A DNA stretch of 64,000 nucleotides, from positions 186,001 through 250,000 of the forward strand of contig JANQQE010000030.1 of NCBI GenBank assembly GCA_028285105.1. The letters run 5' to 3'. Positions 45,127 through 51,877 of this stretch are shown piece after piece. Made by a program: the position numbers and the translations under genes. Each line of letters begins with the position of its first letter. The first letter of the stretch is position 1. Origin of the DNA: Alphaproteobacteria bacterium (lineage in GTDB: Bacteria; Planctomycetota; Phycisphaerae; UBA1845). The notes beneath the pieces were generated by a model. It was not told the DNA's origin and searched no databases. It saw only the letters and a program-made list of their open reading frames with translations.

Positions 45127-45786
45127 CTAAAGACTGATCAGGCCTTCCCGGACTGCGTACCGCGTGAGCGCAACGCGATCGTGAAGGTCGAGTCGTTTCA
45201 TCATGTTGTCGCAATGACAATCGATCGTCTTGACCGCGACATTCAGGCGTTCGGCGATTTGCTTCTTGGAACGCCCGTGGGCGATGTGTTTGAGAATTTC
45301 GATCTGTCTCGGCGTGATGATGGTCCGCCGCGTTTGCAGCGGCTTTAATACGTTGCCGGTGACCGAACACTTGGCGAGACGCTTTTTGACATCGTCGGAG
45401 AAAAAGGTCTTTCCCTGCACAATGTCTTGCAGTCCATCGATGAATCGCTCCATGCTCTCGCGTTTCGAGATGAATCCGTCTGCATCCATCGCAATTGCGT
45501 GATCGACATATCGATCAAAAACACTGGCGCTGATGAAAACTGTTTTAATACCGGGTTGGACCCGGCGAATTTCAAGAGCCAGATTGGTGCCTGACTCTCC
45601 GTCCAGGTTGATGTCGATGAGAGCGATCGTGCAATTGGCATGCTGCAACTGCTTCAAGGCTTCTTTGCGGTTGGCTGCCGTCGCCACGACCTCGAACCCC
45701 GGGATGCGATTGAGGACATCCTGAAAGGTCGATCGGACCATCTCATGGTCGTCCACCAGTAGAATTCGAGCCGCACTCTTAATCAT
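45127..45786 (-). CDS. NarL/LuxR-type response regulator
   Basis: The ATG at 45786 overlaps the last 8 bases of the histidine kinase gene; the long open frame ahead of it is antisense-like extension. The 219-residue protein has a receiver domain with acidic ARILLVDDHEMVRST, phosphoacceptor Asp in ALIDINLDGE, Ser in FISASVF and Lys in GFISKRES. The C-terminal LuxR helix-turn-helix is ITPRQIEILKHIAHGRSKKQIAERLNVAVKTIDCH. It is predicted to be phosphorylated by the upstream kinase and to control genes not identified here. Confidence 0.95.
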   Translation of the reverse strand: MIKSAARILLVDDHEMVRSTFQDVLNRIPGFEVVATAANRKEALKQLQHANCTIALIDINLDGESGTNLALEIRRVQPGIKTVFISASVFDRYVDHAIAMDADGFISKRESMERFIDGLQDIVQGKTFFSDDVKKRLAKCSVTGNVLKPLQTRRTIITPRQIEILKHIAHGRSKKQIAERLNVAVKTIDCHCDNMMKRLDLHDRVALTRYAVREGLISL

Positions 45787-46903
45787 GACCGTTGCATCGC
45801 TCGTCGTTTTGAAACATTGGAAATTCGACGCGAACTTCCGTTCCCCTGCCGATGGTCGATTCAAGCGCCATCGTTCCGCCATGGTCACTGACCACATCGG
45901 CGACGATGGACAAACCAAGCCCACTACCTGAGCTGCTGCGCTTCGTCGAAAAACCCGTTTCAAATGCGCGCCTGGCCGTTTGCGCATCCATGCCAACACC
46001 CGTATCTCGTACTTTCAAAACAGCGCGAAGCGACTGTGCGTGCTGGCTGCTCGCAGTCTTTCCGTTGAGATAAGGTCGGGCGGGACATCTGTTCGGTACA
46101 TCGAGGGAAACGAACACATGCCCGCCCGAGCGCAATGACTCGACGGCATTCGAAAGAAGATTTTGAACGACTCGACCCAACTGCGTTGCATTCCCGTAAA
46201 CGGGCACCGGAATGTGGGATGGCACATCCTCGATGATTGAAATGTTGGGCGGCATCCATGAGCGGGCGCTTTCCACAGTCGCCTGGATCACCTGATTCAA
46301 ATCGACTCTCGACTTGGGCACGCCAGCCAGGGCGTCGGATTTTCGCAGCAGCGCCGACAGACCAAGCGCCCGCTTGGCGGCCAACTGGATTGCGCGAATC
46401 GAATGGGCACATCGCCGATCGAATTTGAGATCGGATTGGGCGAGTTCTGCACGGTTGGCAATCACCGACAGAAGATTGTCCAGATCGTGGACGAACTGCC
46501 CAACGTTCATACTTCCGTGGGCATCTGCGGTCCTGTTCTTTCCTGCGACACCGTTCAGACCCGGCTGCATGGTGCTTTGTATCTGCTCTGTGCTTTGCAG
46601 CTGATCTGTGCTTTTGAACTGCTCAGGTCGGTCAATGGATTTGCTGACCAACGCTCTCTCTTGAGTCGGACATTCTTGATTCAATATTTCCAGATTCTGA
46701 GTTTCCCTTCGAATCAACGCTCTTGGTCCCTTCGCTACCGTCGAACCCGACGGCTGACCTTCGATCGCAAGCAGGCGGTTTTCGGGATGCCTCCGATTGC
46801 CATTGGATTCGTCTGCCAATCGGTGCTGGCCCCGCGTCAGCGCGCGGAGTCGGCGACGGGCCCGGCGCAGTGCGGCAGAACTTCCTTTCAAGAATTGATG
46901 CAT
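45779..46903 (-). CDS. Soluble histidine kinase, partner of the response regulator
   Basis: The protein has no transmembrane segment and no recognised sensor domain. Its first 130 residues are basic then low-complexity with repeating QST units (TDQLQSTEQIQST). The phosphoacceptor helix starts FVHDLDNLLSVI; the ATPase boxes are LLSNAVES (N), VRDTGVGMD (G1) and GSGLGLSIV (G2), all intact. The frame opens at a TTG (46930); ATG at 46903 is chosen because it has GGAGG upstream, though spacing (11) is long. It ends 8 bases inside the response regulator start, indicating translational coupling. The signal sensed is unknown. Confidence 0.88.
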   Translation of the reverse strand: MHQFLKGSSAALRRARRRLRALTRGQHRLADESNGNRRHPENRLLAIEGQPSGSTVAKGPRALIRRETQNLEILNQECPTQERALVSKSIDRPEQFKSTDQLQSTEQIQSTMQPGLNGVAGKNRTADAHGSMNVGQFVHDLDNLLSVIANRAELAQSDLKFDRRCAHSIRAIQLAAKRALGLSALLRKSDALAGVPKSRVDLNQVIQATVESARSWMPPNISIIEDVPSHIPVPVYGNATQLGRVVQNLLSNAVESLRSGGHVFVSLDVPNRCPARPYLNGKTASSQHAQSLRAVLKVRDTGVGMDAQTARRAFETGFSTKRSSSGSGLGLSIVADVVSDHGGTMALESTIGRGTEVRVEFPMFQNDERCNGHD

Positions 46904-47106
46904 GCGAAGTGTCGCCTCCACCGATTTCAAATCCGATTCCTGTTTTTCCCATGCGCAGCGAAGTTTGCTTCACTGCACCCCCAAGCCAAAAAGGCGCAAC
47001 TTCACCATCAACTCGCAAGCCGAGTTTCATTCCTTCGCTTGGCTACGCTTTCGAGACGACAAAAGACAATCGCTTTTGCATAGCGCTTCAGAGCGGCCCA
47101 ACGCAT

Positions 47107-47874
47107 CTAGCCGGCCTGGCTCTTAACCAACGTGATGCAGTTTGACATCGCCATCAGGTCGGCCATCGCTCCGCTCTCTTCGAGCAGTTGCGTCATCTGA
47201 TCGCGATTCAATCGATCGCTTACATTTTGCTTTTCAAGAGCCAATGCAAATTCATCAACCAACGCATCGCGCGTGTGTTCGGCAGACCGAAGTCTCTCTT
47301 GAAGGTCATCGCTGCAAAGTCGGTCGGCGATTCGATCGACCTCTGCAAATGAACTATCGCAATTCATGTGCCGCAGCGTTGTGTACACAAGCATCGGCGC
47401 CAACTTCGCAAAAAGCTGTCGGGCCTGATCGGCTGTCAACTGTCGTGTCACATCCGTCAGAATGCCTGCCGGTTCATTGGAGACTGATGACGGTGACAAC
47501 TTGGCGTGTTCGCTGGCGGCCAACCGATCCTTGATCTGAGCAACGATTGCATCGAAATCGACAACGACGTCTGACTCATCATCGCTGATCAATTCTGAGT
47601 TGCTGACTGAGAGGTCGACAGTCAGCGCAACACGCAATCGGTCAATTTTCGGGTCGGCACGATGAAATTCATCCGCCAATTGAGCATTGGACGTCATCAA
47701 TTCATTGAACACTGCGGGGTCCTCGACACTTAAGGTTTCGAGCAGCTTTCTCAAATACAAAGCATCGTCAGTCGATTTCTTTCCTGATGGCGATTGCTTT
47801 CCTGATGACGATCGCTTCCCCAATGCCGATTCATTTGTCGGATTTTGATCTGATGAATCTTCGCACATGGACAT
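47107..47874 (-). CDS. Protein of unknown function in the sigma/two-component operon
   Basis: The ATG at 47874 has AGGTGG eight bases upstream and begins 35 bases after the sigma factor stop; the frame opens further upstream but overlaps the sigma gene. The 255-residue product has a short repeat-like basic N-terminus (GKRSSSGKQSPSGKKS) followed by acidic, helical sequence (YLRKLLETLSVEDPAVFNELM; FAKLAPMLVYTTLRHMNCDSSFAEVDRIADRL; TQLLEESGAMADLMAMSN). No membrane segment is seen. It could be a regulator of the sigma factor or of the kinase, but no anti-sigma domain (ZAS) is visible. Function unknown. Confidence 0.7.
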   Translation of the reverse strand: MSMCEDSSDQNPTNESALGKRSSSGKQSPSGKKSTDDALYLRKLLETLSVEDPAVFNELMTSNAQLADEFHRADPKIDRLRVALTVDLSVSNSELISDDESDVVVDFDAIVAQIKDRLAASEHAKLSPSSVSNEPAGILTDVTRQLTADQARQLFAKLAPMLVYTTLRHMNCDSSFAEVDRIADRLCSDDLQERLRSAEHTRDALVDEFALALEKQNVSDRLNRDQMTQLLEESGAMADLMAMSNCITLVKSQAG

Positions 47875-47909
47875 ACATGCCACCTTCAAACTAAGTTCAA
47901 ACACTGAAA

Positions 47910-48485
47910 TCAGGAGATTTGTTGACGAAGGCGATCGAGCGATTCCACAATCAAGTCCGACACACGATGCCAATCTATGTCCAACTGGCGGGCGATCGCG
48001 TTGATCGAGTTTCCGTCGACAACATAGCTCCACAATACCAAACGATTGAGGTCGTCGAGTTCGCAGAAAATTTTTCGAACCCGGAGGATTTCCTCGTTTT
48101 TGACACTCTGAGCGGGACTTGAAGTTGTCGCATTTGTGGGATTCAGGTAGCGGGCGATGTCGGTTAGTTCACTTTCAGCCGACGCACCCACAGAAATCTT
48201 GGACCCGATCTTGCCTCGGGCGGCTGAGAGTTGATGGGCTTTTGACTTGACCAGATCAAGTGCCGCGTTCTTTGCAACTTGACGGGCAAAGCGAAACAAC
48301 CCGTCATCGTCCGGTAACACGCGCTCTTTGCTGCGTATCAGCATCAACAGGGCATGCTGAACCAGGTCGTCGCGATCGGACGAGACCGTACTGGAGAAGG
48401 ACGCCTCCAGATAGCGACTTAGCCGCGTCCGCAGTTGGAAGATTTCCTTCGATGAGATTACAGTCCACCATGGATTGTTTGACAT
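47910..48485 (-). CDS. ECF-like RNA polymerase sigma factor
   Basis: The 191-residue protein has a region 2 with DDLVQHALLMLIRSKE and FRFARQVAKNAALDLVKSK, and a C-terminal region 4 (LDDLNRLVLWSYVVDGNSINAIARQLDIDWHRVSDLIVESLDRLRQQI) with the helix-turn-helix. The domain 2 and 4 pairing without region 3 is the group 4 layout. It heads the minus-strand operon with the unknown protein, histidine kinase and response regulator, and is divergent from a Ser/Thr kinase gene 269 bases away. In planctomycetes many such sigma factors are linked to Ser/Thr kinases rather than to anti-sigma factors; a link here is inference. Confidence 0.92.
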   Translation of the reverse strand: MSNNPWWTVISSKEIFQLRTRLSRYLEASFSSTVSSDRDDLVQHALLMLIRSKERVLPDDDGLFRFARQVAKNAALDLVKSKAHQLSAARGKIGSKISVGASAESELTDIARYLNPTNATTSSPAQSVKNEEILRVRKIFCELDDLNRLVLWSYVVDGNSINAIARQLDIDWHRVSDLIVESLDRLRQQIS

Positions 48486-48754: not shown

Positions 48755-51232
48755 ATGAAAGAATCTCAGGTCCAGATTTTTATGTCCGCGATGTTTGCAG
48801 ACGATGCGCGAGACGACGAGATTCTGAATCTCGCAAGCGAACTTGCACATCAACCCGACGCACTGGAACACATCCGCAAGGCTTGGCAAAGCGCCGAACT
48901 TCCAATCATTTCCGATTATTTTTGTCTTCGTCGCCTGGGACACGGAAGTTCCGGAGTGGTCTACAAAGCGCTCCATTTCTGCGAAACCCCCGAATGGGTG
49001 GCACTGAAAGTCTTGCGCCATGTGACCGATCGCGACACGGTTCGCTTCATTGAACGCGAAATCGAAATCCTCAAAGCGCTCGACAGTCCAAACATTTCCC
49101 GATATCTCGATTCCGGTCACTTTGCAGGTTCGCACTACCTTGCGATGGAATTGCTCGAAGGCGTTCCTCTCGATGAATACATCAGCGATCCAGCGATGAC
49201 CATTGAAGATCGACTTCGTGTCTTCGAGCGCGTGTGTCACGTCATCGCCGAGGTACATGAACAAGGCGTTGTTCACCGAGATCTGACGCCGCGCCACCTG
49301 TTGATCGACTCGACTGGCCAGCCCCGGCTTGTCGATTTCGGACTCTCCGCGGTGCAATCGGAAGAATGGGCGACGCACATTCGCAAGACTCAGACACAGT
49401 TGGGTCGCATCATGGGAACGGTCAAATACATGTCTCCGGAACAGACCTGGGGGGGCATGGTCCCGATCGATCACGGCTGCGATATTTGGGCGCTTGGCGT
49501 GATGCTCTATGAGATTGCAACTGAAGGCGAATACCCGTATAGCCAAGAACCGACAGATGGTATGAATGCGGGCGATTCGCTGCTTCAACGCATTCAAAAC
49601 GAAATGCCGCGCAAGCCACGCATACCGGACGCGCGTTATGCCAACGGACTATCGACGCTGATCTCCCGATGCCTCGCACCAGAACCCAGGCGAAGGATCG
49701 ATTCAGCGCGCGATCTTGCCCAGGACATCGCCAGCATCTACAAGAGCGACTCCATCCGGACGAAACCGCTTACAGTTCGTTATCGATTTCAACGCATTGC
49801 CATAGGCATGATGTTGCGTTCGCGTTCGGCGGTCTGGATGCTGATCATCGCGTCAGTCCTTGGAACGATTTACCTGGGAACACTTCGATACGGTGTCGAT
49901 TTTGGAAGTGTCAGCGACGCACACAGCGCCCGGGCCCAGACGCAGCTCATTAAAAAGGATATGACGCATGGTCCGATCGACTTTGCGATCATTGCGATCG
50001 GCGACGAAACCGCCAACGCGGTAACGGAATTTGCCAGGTCAAACGGACTTGCCGACATACGAACCGATTTGAAATCGTGGCGCCCATTGCACGGACAATT
50101 GATGTCACGATTGGCCGCCAGCGAACCCCGTGCGGTCGTGTGGGATTTCTATTTCAAGTCAGGGCAACCGGGCGATCCGCGATTTGTCGAAGGCATCAGG
50201 CGTCTCGACGAAGCCCACATTCCAGTTGTACTCGGTGCGCTGGACTACGATGACGACGGTAAACCGAAAATCAGTCCCGACATATACGAACCGCTGAGCG
50301 AAGTGATTCATCATGGACTGCTCTATTCGCGCAGCATGGAGGACCGCCCGGGAGAATTTATCGTTGCCCTCAAACGCAAAGACCGGGTCTATCCGTCGTT
50401 GGCGCTTGCAACCCTTGGGGGACTGTGCTTTCCAAGACTTCAAAGCGATTTTTCGTGGCGGCCCGGATCGGACGAATTAACCATTCAGCATCGCGAGCGC
50501 GGGACCGACGACTACATTCGCGACATCGATCAAATCCAGGTCATGACACTACCGCCAGTACGGGACGGACGGCATGAAACCCAACATGGCGACCAGGCAG
50601 CGGTAAAGGTTTTTGACCTGGTTCCGCTGGAAAAACAACACGCGAGAACCATCGCCTACGAAGATTTGATCATTGCAGACGATATTCAAATGAGCGAATG
50701 GGTTGGCGGCAAGGTCGTCATTTTCATCGATGTGCGATCGCCGAGTTTCTGGTCGCTACGCAAACCAGATCTTCACTCGGTCAGGTATCCATCAGGGGTG
50801 ATTCACAATGTACCGGGCGGTTACTTGATGGCCAACGCAATTGAGGGCATCGTCAGTTCGTACTCCGTCAACAGACGCTACTGGTTACCGATCGAAGCCT
50901 ATACATTGGTGGTCGGAATGGCTGTTGTCGGTTGCCTGCTGGCCAGTCTGCTCTCGCGGAGAGGCGCGTGTCGAACGCTTCGCAGCCAATTGACAACGGC
51001 TGGCACACTCGCAACGATTACCGTTGTTAGTGGGTACCTTGCGCTCAACCCGGCTGCACGCAATTACACGGACTGGGCCATCGCCGGAGCGGCAGCCGGC
51101 TCGACGGCATTACTGGCGCTTTGGGTCGAATACGTGCGAAATCAATATCGGTTTCCACGCCATTCGAATTCGCCTGATCCCAAACGCCAAAGCAGCCGTC
51201 AGAGCCAACTGGACACCTCCGACTCGGCTTGA
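48755..51232 (+). CDS. Ser/Thr protein kinase with CHASE2 sensor and altered catalytic loop
   Basis: Residues 55-330 form a protein kinase domain: LGHGSSGVV (P-loop), Lys85 in VALKVL, Glu in REIEIL, VVHRDLTPRHLL (174-183) and VDFGLS (DFG 194-196), then GTVKYMSPEQ. In the catalytic loop the usual HRDLKPxN reads HRDLTPRH, so Lys is Thr and the Mg-binding Asn is His181. A membrane segment (VWMLIIASVLGTIYLG, 360-375) leads to a CHASE2 domain (about 395-690: FAIIAIGDETANAV, VVWDFYFKSG, VVLGALDYDDDG), then further membrane segments to residue 780. CHASE2 is an extracellular sensor. The gene is divergent from the sigma operon and probably acts in the same network (inference). Confidence 0.9.
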   Translation: MKESQVQIFMSAMFADDARDDEILNLASELAHQPDALEHIRKAWQSAELPIISDYFCLRRLGHGSSGVVYKALHFCETPEWVALKVLRHVTDRDTVRFIEREIEILKALDSPNISRYLDSGHFAGSHYLAMELLEGVPLDEYISDPAMTIEDRLRVFERVCHVIAEVHEQGVVHRDLTPRHLLIDSTGQPRLVDFGLSAVQSEEWATHIRKTQTQLGRIMGTVKYMSPEQTWGGMVPIDHGCDIWALGVMLYEIATEGEYPYSQEPTDGMNAGDSLLQRIQNEMPRKPRIPDARYANGLSTLISRCLAPEPRRRIDSARDLAQDIASIYKSDSIRTKPLTVRYRFQRIAIGMMLRSRSAVWMLIIASVLGTIYLGTLRYGVDFGSVSDAHSARAQTQLIKKDMTHGPIDFAIIAIGDETANAVTEFARSNGLADIRTDLKSWRPLHGQLMSRLAASEPRAVVWDFYFKSGQPGDPRFVEGIRRLDEAHIPVVLGALDYDDDGKPKISPDIYEPLSEVIHHGLLYSRSMEDRPGEFIVALKRKDRVYPSLALATLGGLCFPRLQSDFSWRPGSDELTIQHRERGTDDYIRDIDQIQVMTLPPVRDGRHETQHGDQAAVKVFDLVPLEKQHARTIAYEDLIIADDIQMSEWVGGKVVIFIDVRSPSFWSLRKPDLHSVRYPSGVIHNVPGGYLMANAIEGIVSSYSVNRRYWLPIEAYTLVVGMAVVGCLLASLLSRRGACRTLRSQLTTAGTLATITVVSGYLALNPAARNYTDWAIAGAAAGSTALLALWVEYVRNQYRFPRHSNSPDPKRQSSRQSQLDTSDSA

Positions 51233-51274: not shown

Positions 51275-51394
51275 CTAGGCCACCCAGGAAATTGCGCCCA
51301 TCAAGAACGCCATCATGGCTGCCGCAAACATCACAACTCGACTGAACCATTGAACGATCATTTGTTCGTTTTGACTAAGTGGATAATGCATCAT
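51275..51394 (-). CDS. 39-residue membrane micro-protein, second of a small-gene pair
   Basis: Read on the minus strand, ATG at 51394 (two consecutive ATG codons) starts a 39-codon frame: MMHYPLSQNEQMIVQWFSRV, then VMFAAAMMAFLMGAISWVA. The last half is a single hydrophobic helix of about 20 residues. A very strong ribosome binding site (AGGGAGG) lies about seven bases upstream and overlaps the stop codon of the 45-codon gene ahead of it (14-base gap), so the two are translationally coupled. No family is recognised. The strong initiation signals and the non-shadow position support a real gene. It lies 42 bases after the kinase stop on the other strand. Confidence 0.62.
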   Translation of the reverse strand: MMHYPLSQNEQMIVQWFSRVVMFAAAMMAFLMGAISWVA

Positions 51395-51408
51395 TGCATT
51401 CCTCCCTT

Positions 51409-51546
51409 TCAACCTTCTGACCCGAGGATTTCCCACGCGATTCCGTTTTCAACCATGTCGATGAAGATGTTGTAAAGATCTTCAAGTGGGCCACTAAAGA
51501 CGTAGTCTGCTACGACAAATCCGTTCGCAACCATTTCTTCAAACAT
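51409..51546 (-). CDS. 45-residue acidic micro-protein, first of a small-gene pair
   Basis: On the minus strand ATG at 51546 starts 45 codons (MFEEMVANGFVVADYVFSGP, then LEDLYNIFIDMVENGIAWEI and LGSEG), with AAGGAG nine to ten bases upstream. It is acidic (about nine Asp/Glu, no Lys or Arg) and contains a possible internal repeat: MVANGFVVA and MVENGIAWE are ten residues of similar layout. No signal or membrane segment. It is coupled to the membrane micro-protein downstream. No family is recognised. The compact, acidic chain and adjacent membrane peptide suggest a two-component micro-protein system; this is inference. Confidence 0.62.
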   Translation of the reverse strand: MFEEMVANGFVVADYVFSGPLEDLYNIFIDMVENGIAWEILGSEG

Positions 51547-51877
51547 CGTTTTCTTCTCCTTGGAAAAAAGTTCGCAAGCTCAAACGTACGTGTTATGAGC
51601 GAAACAGCCCCAACCGTAGAGTGAACATGATTAGGGGCGTGAGTGGATTTGATTCTGCGGATTACGATTGATTGATGTCAATAAGCAGAACCCGAGTTGC
51701 TACAGAACTGCGTGAAATTTGAACTTCATTCAACCCAATTCCCCAGCAATCTGGGCTAAATTGGTAGTATGTGTAGAGTGTAAAATGGGGAAAATTACCG
51801 ACGGTGTTTGAAACCGCTGCATCGTTATCGGAAAACGATTGGCTCGAAAACATTCTTGCATTCAGGCTTGATAAAGC
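51547..51877. other. Divergent intergenic region between micro-protein pair and glycosyltransferase
   Basis: About 330 bases. A possible dyad lies at 51578-51600. A 63-codon minus-strand frame at 51662-51853 has no ribosome binding site and is not called. The promoter for the micro-protein pair should be here, as well as that of the glycosyltransferase. Confidence 0.5.
51578..51600. promoter_or_regulatory. Imperfect dyad upstream of the micro-protein pair
   Basis: GCTCA and TGAGC flank an inner AAC-GTACGT-GTT core, forming a 23-base imperfect palindrome 32 bases before the ATG of the 45-codon gene. It could be an operator or a leader hairpin. Called by eye only. Confidence 0.35.

Follow-up and report, generated by a model that had tools for sequence, protein, structure and literature searches.

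Two micro-protein genes conserved beside a clade of CHASE2 receptor kinases in an uncultured planctomycete order

MgrB, a membrane peptide of 47 amino acids, represses PhoQ signalling (PMC2789325) and provides the precedent of a small membrane regulator acting on a sensor kinase (PMC2789325, PMC8404706). We propose it as the nearest functional analogue of two micro-proteins, here called A and B, whose genes adjoin a receptor kinase gene in a planctomycete genome. Like MgrB, B is a predicted single-pass membrane peptide of less than 50 amino acids (37–42 in B) tied to a membrane receptor kinase. By contrast, the target of MgrB is the histidine kinase PhoQ, whereas the candidate target here is a CHASE2 Ser/Thr kinase, and there are two peptides instead of one. 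No sequence relation between the two systems was found: scans of A and B members with Pfam and NCBIfam retrieved neither MgrB nor any other family of small regulators. The adjoining gene belongs to the CHASE2-domain receptor kinases (Pfam PF05226 plus PF00069), for which the literature on CHASE2 in Planctomycetes, within the part covered, describes no companion micro-proteins. Another described protein resembles B locally in the RW...LGAIS helix region: the best, albeit weak, match of the B profile among PDB sequences was PsbF, the beta subunit of cytochrome b559 (1izl chain F and others, E 0.012), and one of 23 B members matched TIGR01333 in NCBIfam (E 0.0067), neither match being significant after multiple tests. 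However, PsbF carries its heme-ligand His in the transmembrane helix and B has no His in its last 24 residues in any of 32 peptides, for which reason we rejected a PsbF-like heme protein; the kinase context of B is a further difference. In line with the earlier note on this DNA, which recognized neither peptide, A and B members found no convincing family in Pfam, NCBIfam, PHROG or the PDB sequences. Matches to PPR, MamI, bacteriocin, CbiM and other families concerned one to three members each at E > 0.001 and were discarded as chance.

The window, that is, the whole stretch of 64,000 nucleotides analysed, carries both genes on its minus strand. ORF A (51409..51546) encodes 45 amino acids followed by TGA and ends in ILGSEG, and ORF B (51275..51394) encodes 39 amino acids followed by TAG, with YPLSxxE...W..R preceding a hydrophobic helix that ends in GAISWVA. 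The tandem frames and the two Shine-Dalgarno sequences noticed previously, AAGGAG for A (51556..51561, minus strand) and AGGGAGG for B (51401..51407, minus strand), were all found again. The second had been described as overlapping the stop codon of A; it begins directly 3' of the TGA, and the close, coupled layout stands, with 14 nt between this TGA and the ATG of B. An in-frame GTG upstream makes a B of 53 amino acids possible, and the ATG is the start used in relatives. About 105 nt upstream of A lies a sigma-70-like promoter (TTGACA-N18-CAGAAT, 51652..51681, minus strand), which has identical hexamers and the same N18 spacing in an alignment with the three nearest relatives. The imperfect dyad of 23 nt ahead of A (51578..51600, minus strand) does exist, but this region varies between species, and a role as a conserved regulatory site is not supported.

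The peptide encoded by ORF A is indeed acidic, with nine acidic residues and no Lys, Arg or His, and contains amphipathic stretches; AlphaFold gives a poor model for it (pLDDT 57). Its suspected internal duplication (MFEEMVANG/IFIDMVENG) exceeds shuffled sequences in the window (p 0.004), whereas in the three nearest relatives it does not (p 0.12–0.23), so that the repeat is weak and cannot be called a conserved feature. B possesses one hydrophobic stretch and a helix predicted from residue 8 to residue 38 (AlphaFold, pLDDT 87), as expected for the single membrane helix initially proposed.

Among five genomes of the window's genus, all retain the ordered A-B pair; in four, including the window, both ORFs are about 70% identical, and the pair of the fifth (G048) is more diverged. 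Within these four closest genomes, synonymous sites differ by 51–77% and non-synonymous sites by 3–21%, with a pooled pN/pS of 0.24 for A and 0.19 for B, and close pairs from another genus display the same synonymous bias. This bias, together with the conservation in every member of the genus, makes a strong comparative case that A and B are protein-coding genes under purifying selection at the amino-acid level. The earlier note's reading of the two frames as genes thus fared well, as both are conserved and their substitutions follow a coding pattern.

Beyond the genus, we tabulated 32 B loci, 31 of them with A, from the window's family and neighbouring families. A profile of B (E < 1e-8) matched 25 of the 51 genomes of the family and also reached other families of the order, and B is almost always preceded directly by a short ORF. 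The commonest form of A has only 24 amino acids (M....WIIDWLEGWVPLIxIGMEG), a core ending in (I/L)GxEG of which the window's genus has an elongated version; the 45 amino acids reported at first are therefore correct for the window but not typical. The C-terminus of A reads GxE(G/A) in 29 of 31 peptides and GxQG in the other two. B has 37–42 amino acids, with PL(S/T)xxE...(V/I)RW..R followed by a hydrophobic helix that ends near GAIS. Gene order and strand are fixed and lengths, Shine-Dalgarno sequences (purine-rich ones also precede the tabulated A genes) and frame are constant across the 31 loci, in support of the coupled two-gene operon previously suggested. From the stop of A to the start of B there are 10–18 nt in 28 of 31 pairs and 54–100 nt in three: tight spacing is usual, not required. 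The named relatives with the pair are Phycisphaerae MAGs, UBA1845 included (retrieved with a genus-only alignment). Outside the order, samples of the phylum (392 genomes) and of the class (397 genomes) yielded only chance-level fragments of A or B, a provisional absence given the limited number of candidates scored per genome. Judging from these comparisons, the pair is conserved together across an uncultured planctomycete order.

A search for shared 8-mers upstream of all loci barely exceeded shuffled sequences. In loci with the short A (L048, L049, L051, L054, L055 and others), an element is visible by eye ~90–100 nt upstream, near GTGCCGACTCC.GCGCGACGA, and ATAGTCG is seen nearer to the gene. 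These elements are possibly an alternative-sigma promoter or a regulator site.

The constant neighbour of the pair is the kinase. In the window it is a Ser/Thr kinase with a CHASE2 domain (825 aa, plus strand, 48755..51232; Pfam Pkinase 1.8e-40, CHASE2 4.1e-6), convergent with A-B, and tblastn comparison of the window's genes with the other neighbourhoods found it common to all of them, whereas most of the rest, the glycosyltransferase included, is restricted to the genus. In the 29 loci with a measurable gap, the kinase stands tail-to-tail with B at distances from +86 nt to −47 nt; the 3' ends overlap by 8–47 nt in 18 of them, and in the window's genus the gap is +42 to +86 nt. In L048, L049, L050, L054, L058 and L129, the last codons of B are antisense to the last codons of the kinase over 44–47 nt, a conserved convergent overlap. 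Transcripts that converge and sometimes overlap might also be expected if the locus produced a regulatory RNA antisense to the 3' end of the kinase gene, with A and B as frames open by chance. This is extremely unlikely, since the strong synonymous bias already contradicts it, lengths, Shine-Dalgarno sequences and frame do not vary between loci, and no overlap of A or B with the kinase occurs in the window's genus.

Within the family, the presence of the kinase parallels that of B: a copy scoring above 150 bits occurs in all 25 genomes with B and in none of the 26 without B, which possess either no CHASE2 kinase or only distant ones. In genera g4 and g6, some species have both B and the kinase and others have neither, some of the latter MAGs being incomplete. 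We placed 81 CHASE2 kinases in a tree and labelled them by the presence of an adjacent A-B pair. One clade has the pair beside 45 of its 52 kinases, compared with 0 of 29 outside it (separating branch SH-aLRT 98), and the label changes 7 times on the tree against a mean of 26.9 in shuffles. The kinases of G462 and G458 are at contig edges and uninformative on linkage. Five of the seven pairless clade kinases come from genomes that contain unlinked A-B (G500, G018, G471, G445 and G468), two of which (G445 and G018) have an additional clade kinase with an adjacent pair; in G446 and G464 no A-B pair was found. The unlinked pair of G500 (L126:8870-9115) lies downstream of a TPR-type Ser/Thr kinase, on the same strand, and that kinase has no CHASE2. 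Because the genomes of five exception kinases hold their pairs elsewhere, the association is, on genomic grounds, with the kinase clade and not only with its locus.

This lineage-stable distribution also bears on the suggestion that the pair is a toxin-like module. A toxin, a toxin-antitoxin module or holin-like peptides would agree with the small hydrophobic products of a two-gene operon. We nonetheless consider this very unlikely, as the pair stays beside one kinase clade and is present or absent with it, no known toxin family was recognized in Pfam, NCBIfam or PHROG, and a phage origin found no backing in any phage match or in a PHROG family beyond chance.

The same arrangement recurs around more distant kinases. 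Among the flanks of lower-scoring CHASE2 kinases, we read four by eye and then scanned the whole set on both strands for a short frame with the A signature at its end. Ten loci had one, all in a second family (f103), always on the convergent strand and 146–368 nt from the kinase stop; the remaining flanks gave no match to this signature. Each of the ten A-like ORFs is followed by a B-like peptide, for example MFTYLWHVIDVLIGVIEYVTMGVEG then MHRAFFDAHFTAGERRLASRIATLIWMATFAGLVACLTWSGGQ. A profile of the f103 B peptides retrieved more members, mostly adjoining the kinase, and some f103 A peptides differ at the C-terminus (GVEY, GVER, GTEL, GTAL). The CHASE2 kinase occupies one side of the f103 pair, and in several loci an FHA-domain protein and then a Ser/Thr kinase stand divergently on the other side, as identified by Pfam on examples and by similar N-termini in other loci. 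In L221 (6193-10172), L198, L202, L207 and L215, the FHA-domain protein is divergent from A-B and the second Ser/Thr kinase follows where seen; in L221 this block remains with A-B although the CHASE2 kinase is elsewhere.

The f103 distances are informative about a further alternative, namely that A-B is a small operon, independent of the kinase, that by chance became locked tail-to-tail with it, partly through the 3' overlap. An overlap in 18 of 29 loci would resist rearrangement, yet the linkage is kept where there is none, both in the window's genus and in f103, and even genomes with an unlinked pair conform to the joint presence or absence of A-B and the clade kinase; we therefore hold simple inertia to be unlikely. 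Taken at genome level, the linkage of A-B to the CHASE2 kinase is strong. Convergent genes are not co-transcribed, so that linkage is no proof of a complex.

A wider signalling context exists in the window. On the minus strand lie a putative sigma factor (47910..48485, weak Sigma70_r2), divergent from the kinase and conserved in the genus and in L056 and L062, as well as a histidine-kinase ATPase (45779-46930) and a LuxR-type response regulator (45127-45999), components of a genus-level signalling island common to the genus and L056. Directly downstream of the sigma-like gene, a protein of 308 amino acids without Pfam match (47107-48033) is conserved among members of the genus and may represent an anti-sigma factor. 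The earlier note had placed the pair at the edge of a sigma/kinase island; the signalling context is real, but mere position at an island's edge understates a link that is a specific, order-wide tie to the adjacent CHASE2 kinase.

A and B probably belong to the signalling machinery of that kinase. We estimate at about even the chance that they are membrane accessory or regulatory peptides of the CHASE2 receptor Ser/Thr kinase, MgrB-like in action and unrelated to MgrB in sequence. Co-translated, they would serve the kinase as accessory or regulatory subunits at the membrane. B would be anchored by its one helix, with the basic, capped N-terminus (PL[S/T]xxE...W..R) predicted at the cytoplasmic face; its basic residues before the hydrophobic half suggest an N-in topology. 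S/T-x-x-E is a helix capping-box motif and, as the modelled helix of B begins at residue 8, Ser7 of PLSxxE would sit at the helix N-cap. A may lie on the inner face of the membrane, bound to B and/or to membrane segments of the kinase; given the poorly predicted structure of A, this proposed role rests on its composition. Together, A and B would set or gate the kinase output, in the manner of MgrB on PhoQ. We advance more tentatively a narrower version, in which the micro-proteins, of which one has just 24 residues, would serve this CHASE2 kinase clade either as obligate dedicated subunits or as its cognate peptide signal and would be inherited with it order-wide.

The N-terminal motif of B also invites the idea that the kinase uses B and/or A as substrates or output elements, with the conserved Ser/Thr of PL[S/T]xxE phosphorylated and read by FHA proteins. 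Ser or Thr occupies this position in 31 of the 32 tabulated B peptides, the motif is predicted to be cytoplasmic and an FHA protein adjoins the pair in f103. However, S/T-x-x-E is equally a classic capping box, the AlphaFold helix starts one residue past the Ser/Thr, and the Asn of L059 and the His of L149 and L151 at this position fit an N-cap better than a phospho-acceptor, which makes a phosphorylated substrate rather improbable. CHASE2 is an extracellular sensor domain, and A could instead, whole or as a processed C-terminal piece (GxEG-COOH), be exported, with the CHASE2 ectodomain as its sensor and B assisting export or processing. The very short length of A, its conserved C-terminus and the persistent proximity of the A, B and kinase genes agree with such a peptide signal. 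Yet neither a signal peptide nor a double-glycine leader can be recognised in the A sequence, and A lacks linkage to any conserved protease or exporter, nor do the neighbours of unlinked pairs suggest one; we find the signal doubtful, and favour the reading of A and B as regulatory subunits at the membrane.

Genes of 24–45 codons easily escape annotation, as A and B had done here. Small as they are, these two genes experience strong selection, and across an uncultured order their occurrence matches that of one receptor-kinase clade almost perfectly; the 3' flanks of kinase genes appear worth scanning for hidden partners. The input of such receptor kinases is mostly unknown. Should A-B gate the kinase, we would know of no earlier case of micro-protein partners dedicated to a bacterial CHASE2 Ser/Thr kinase, and the pair would offer a handle on the control of CHASE2 receptor kinases.
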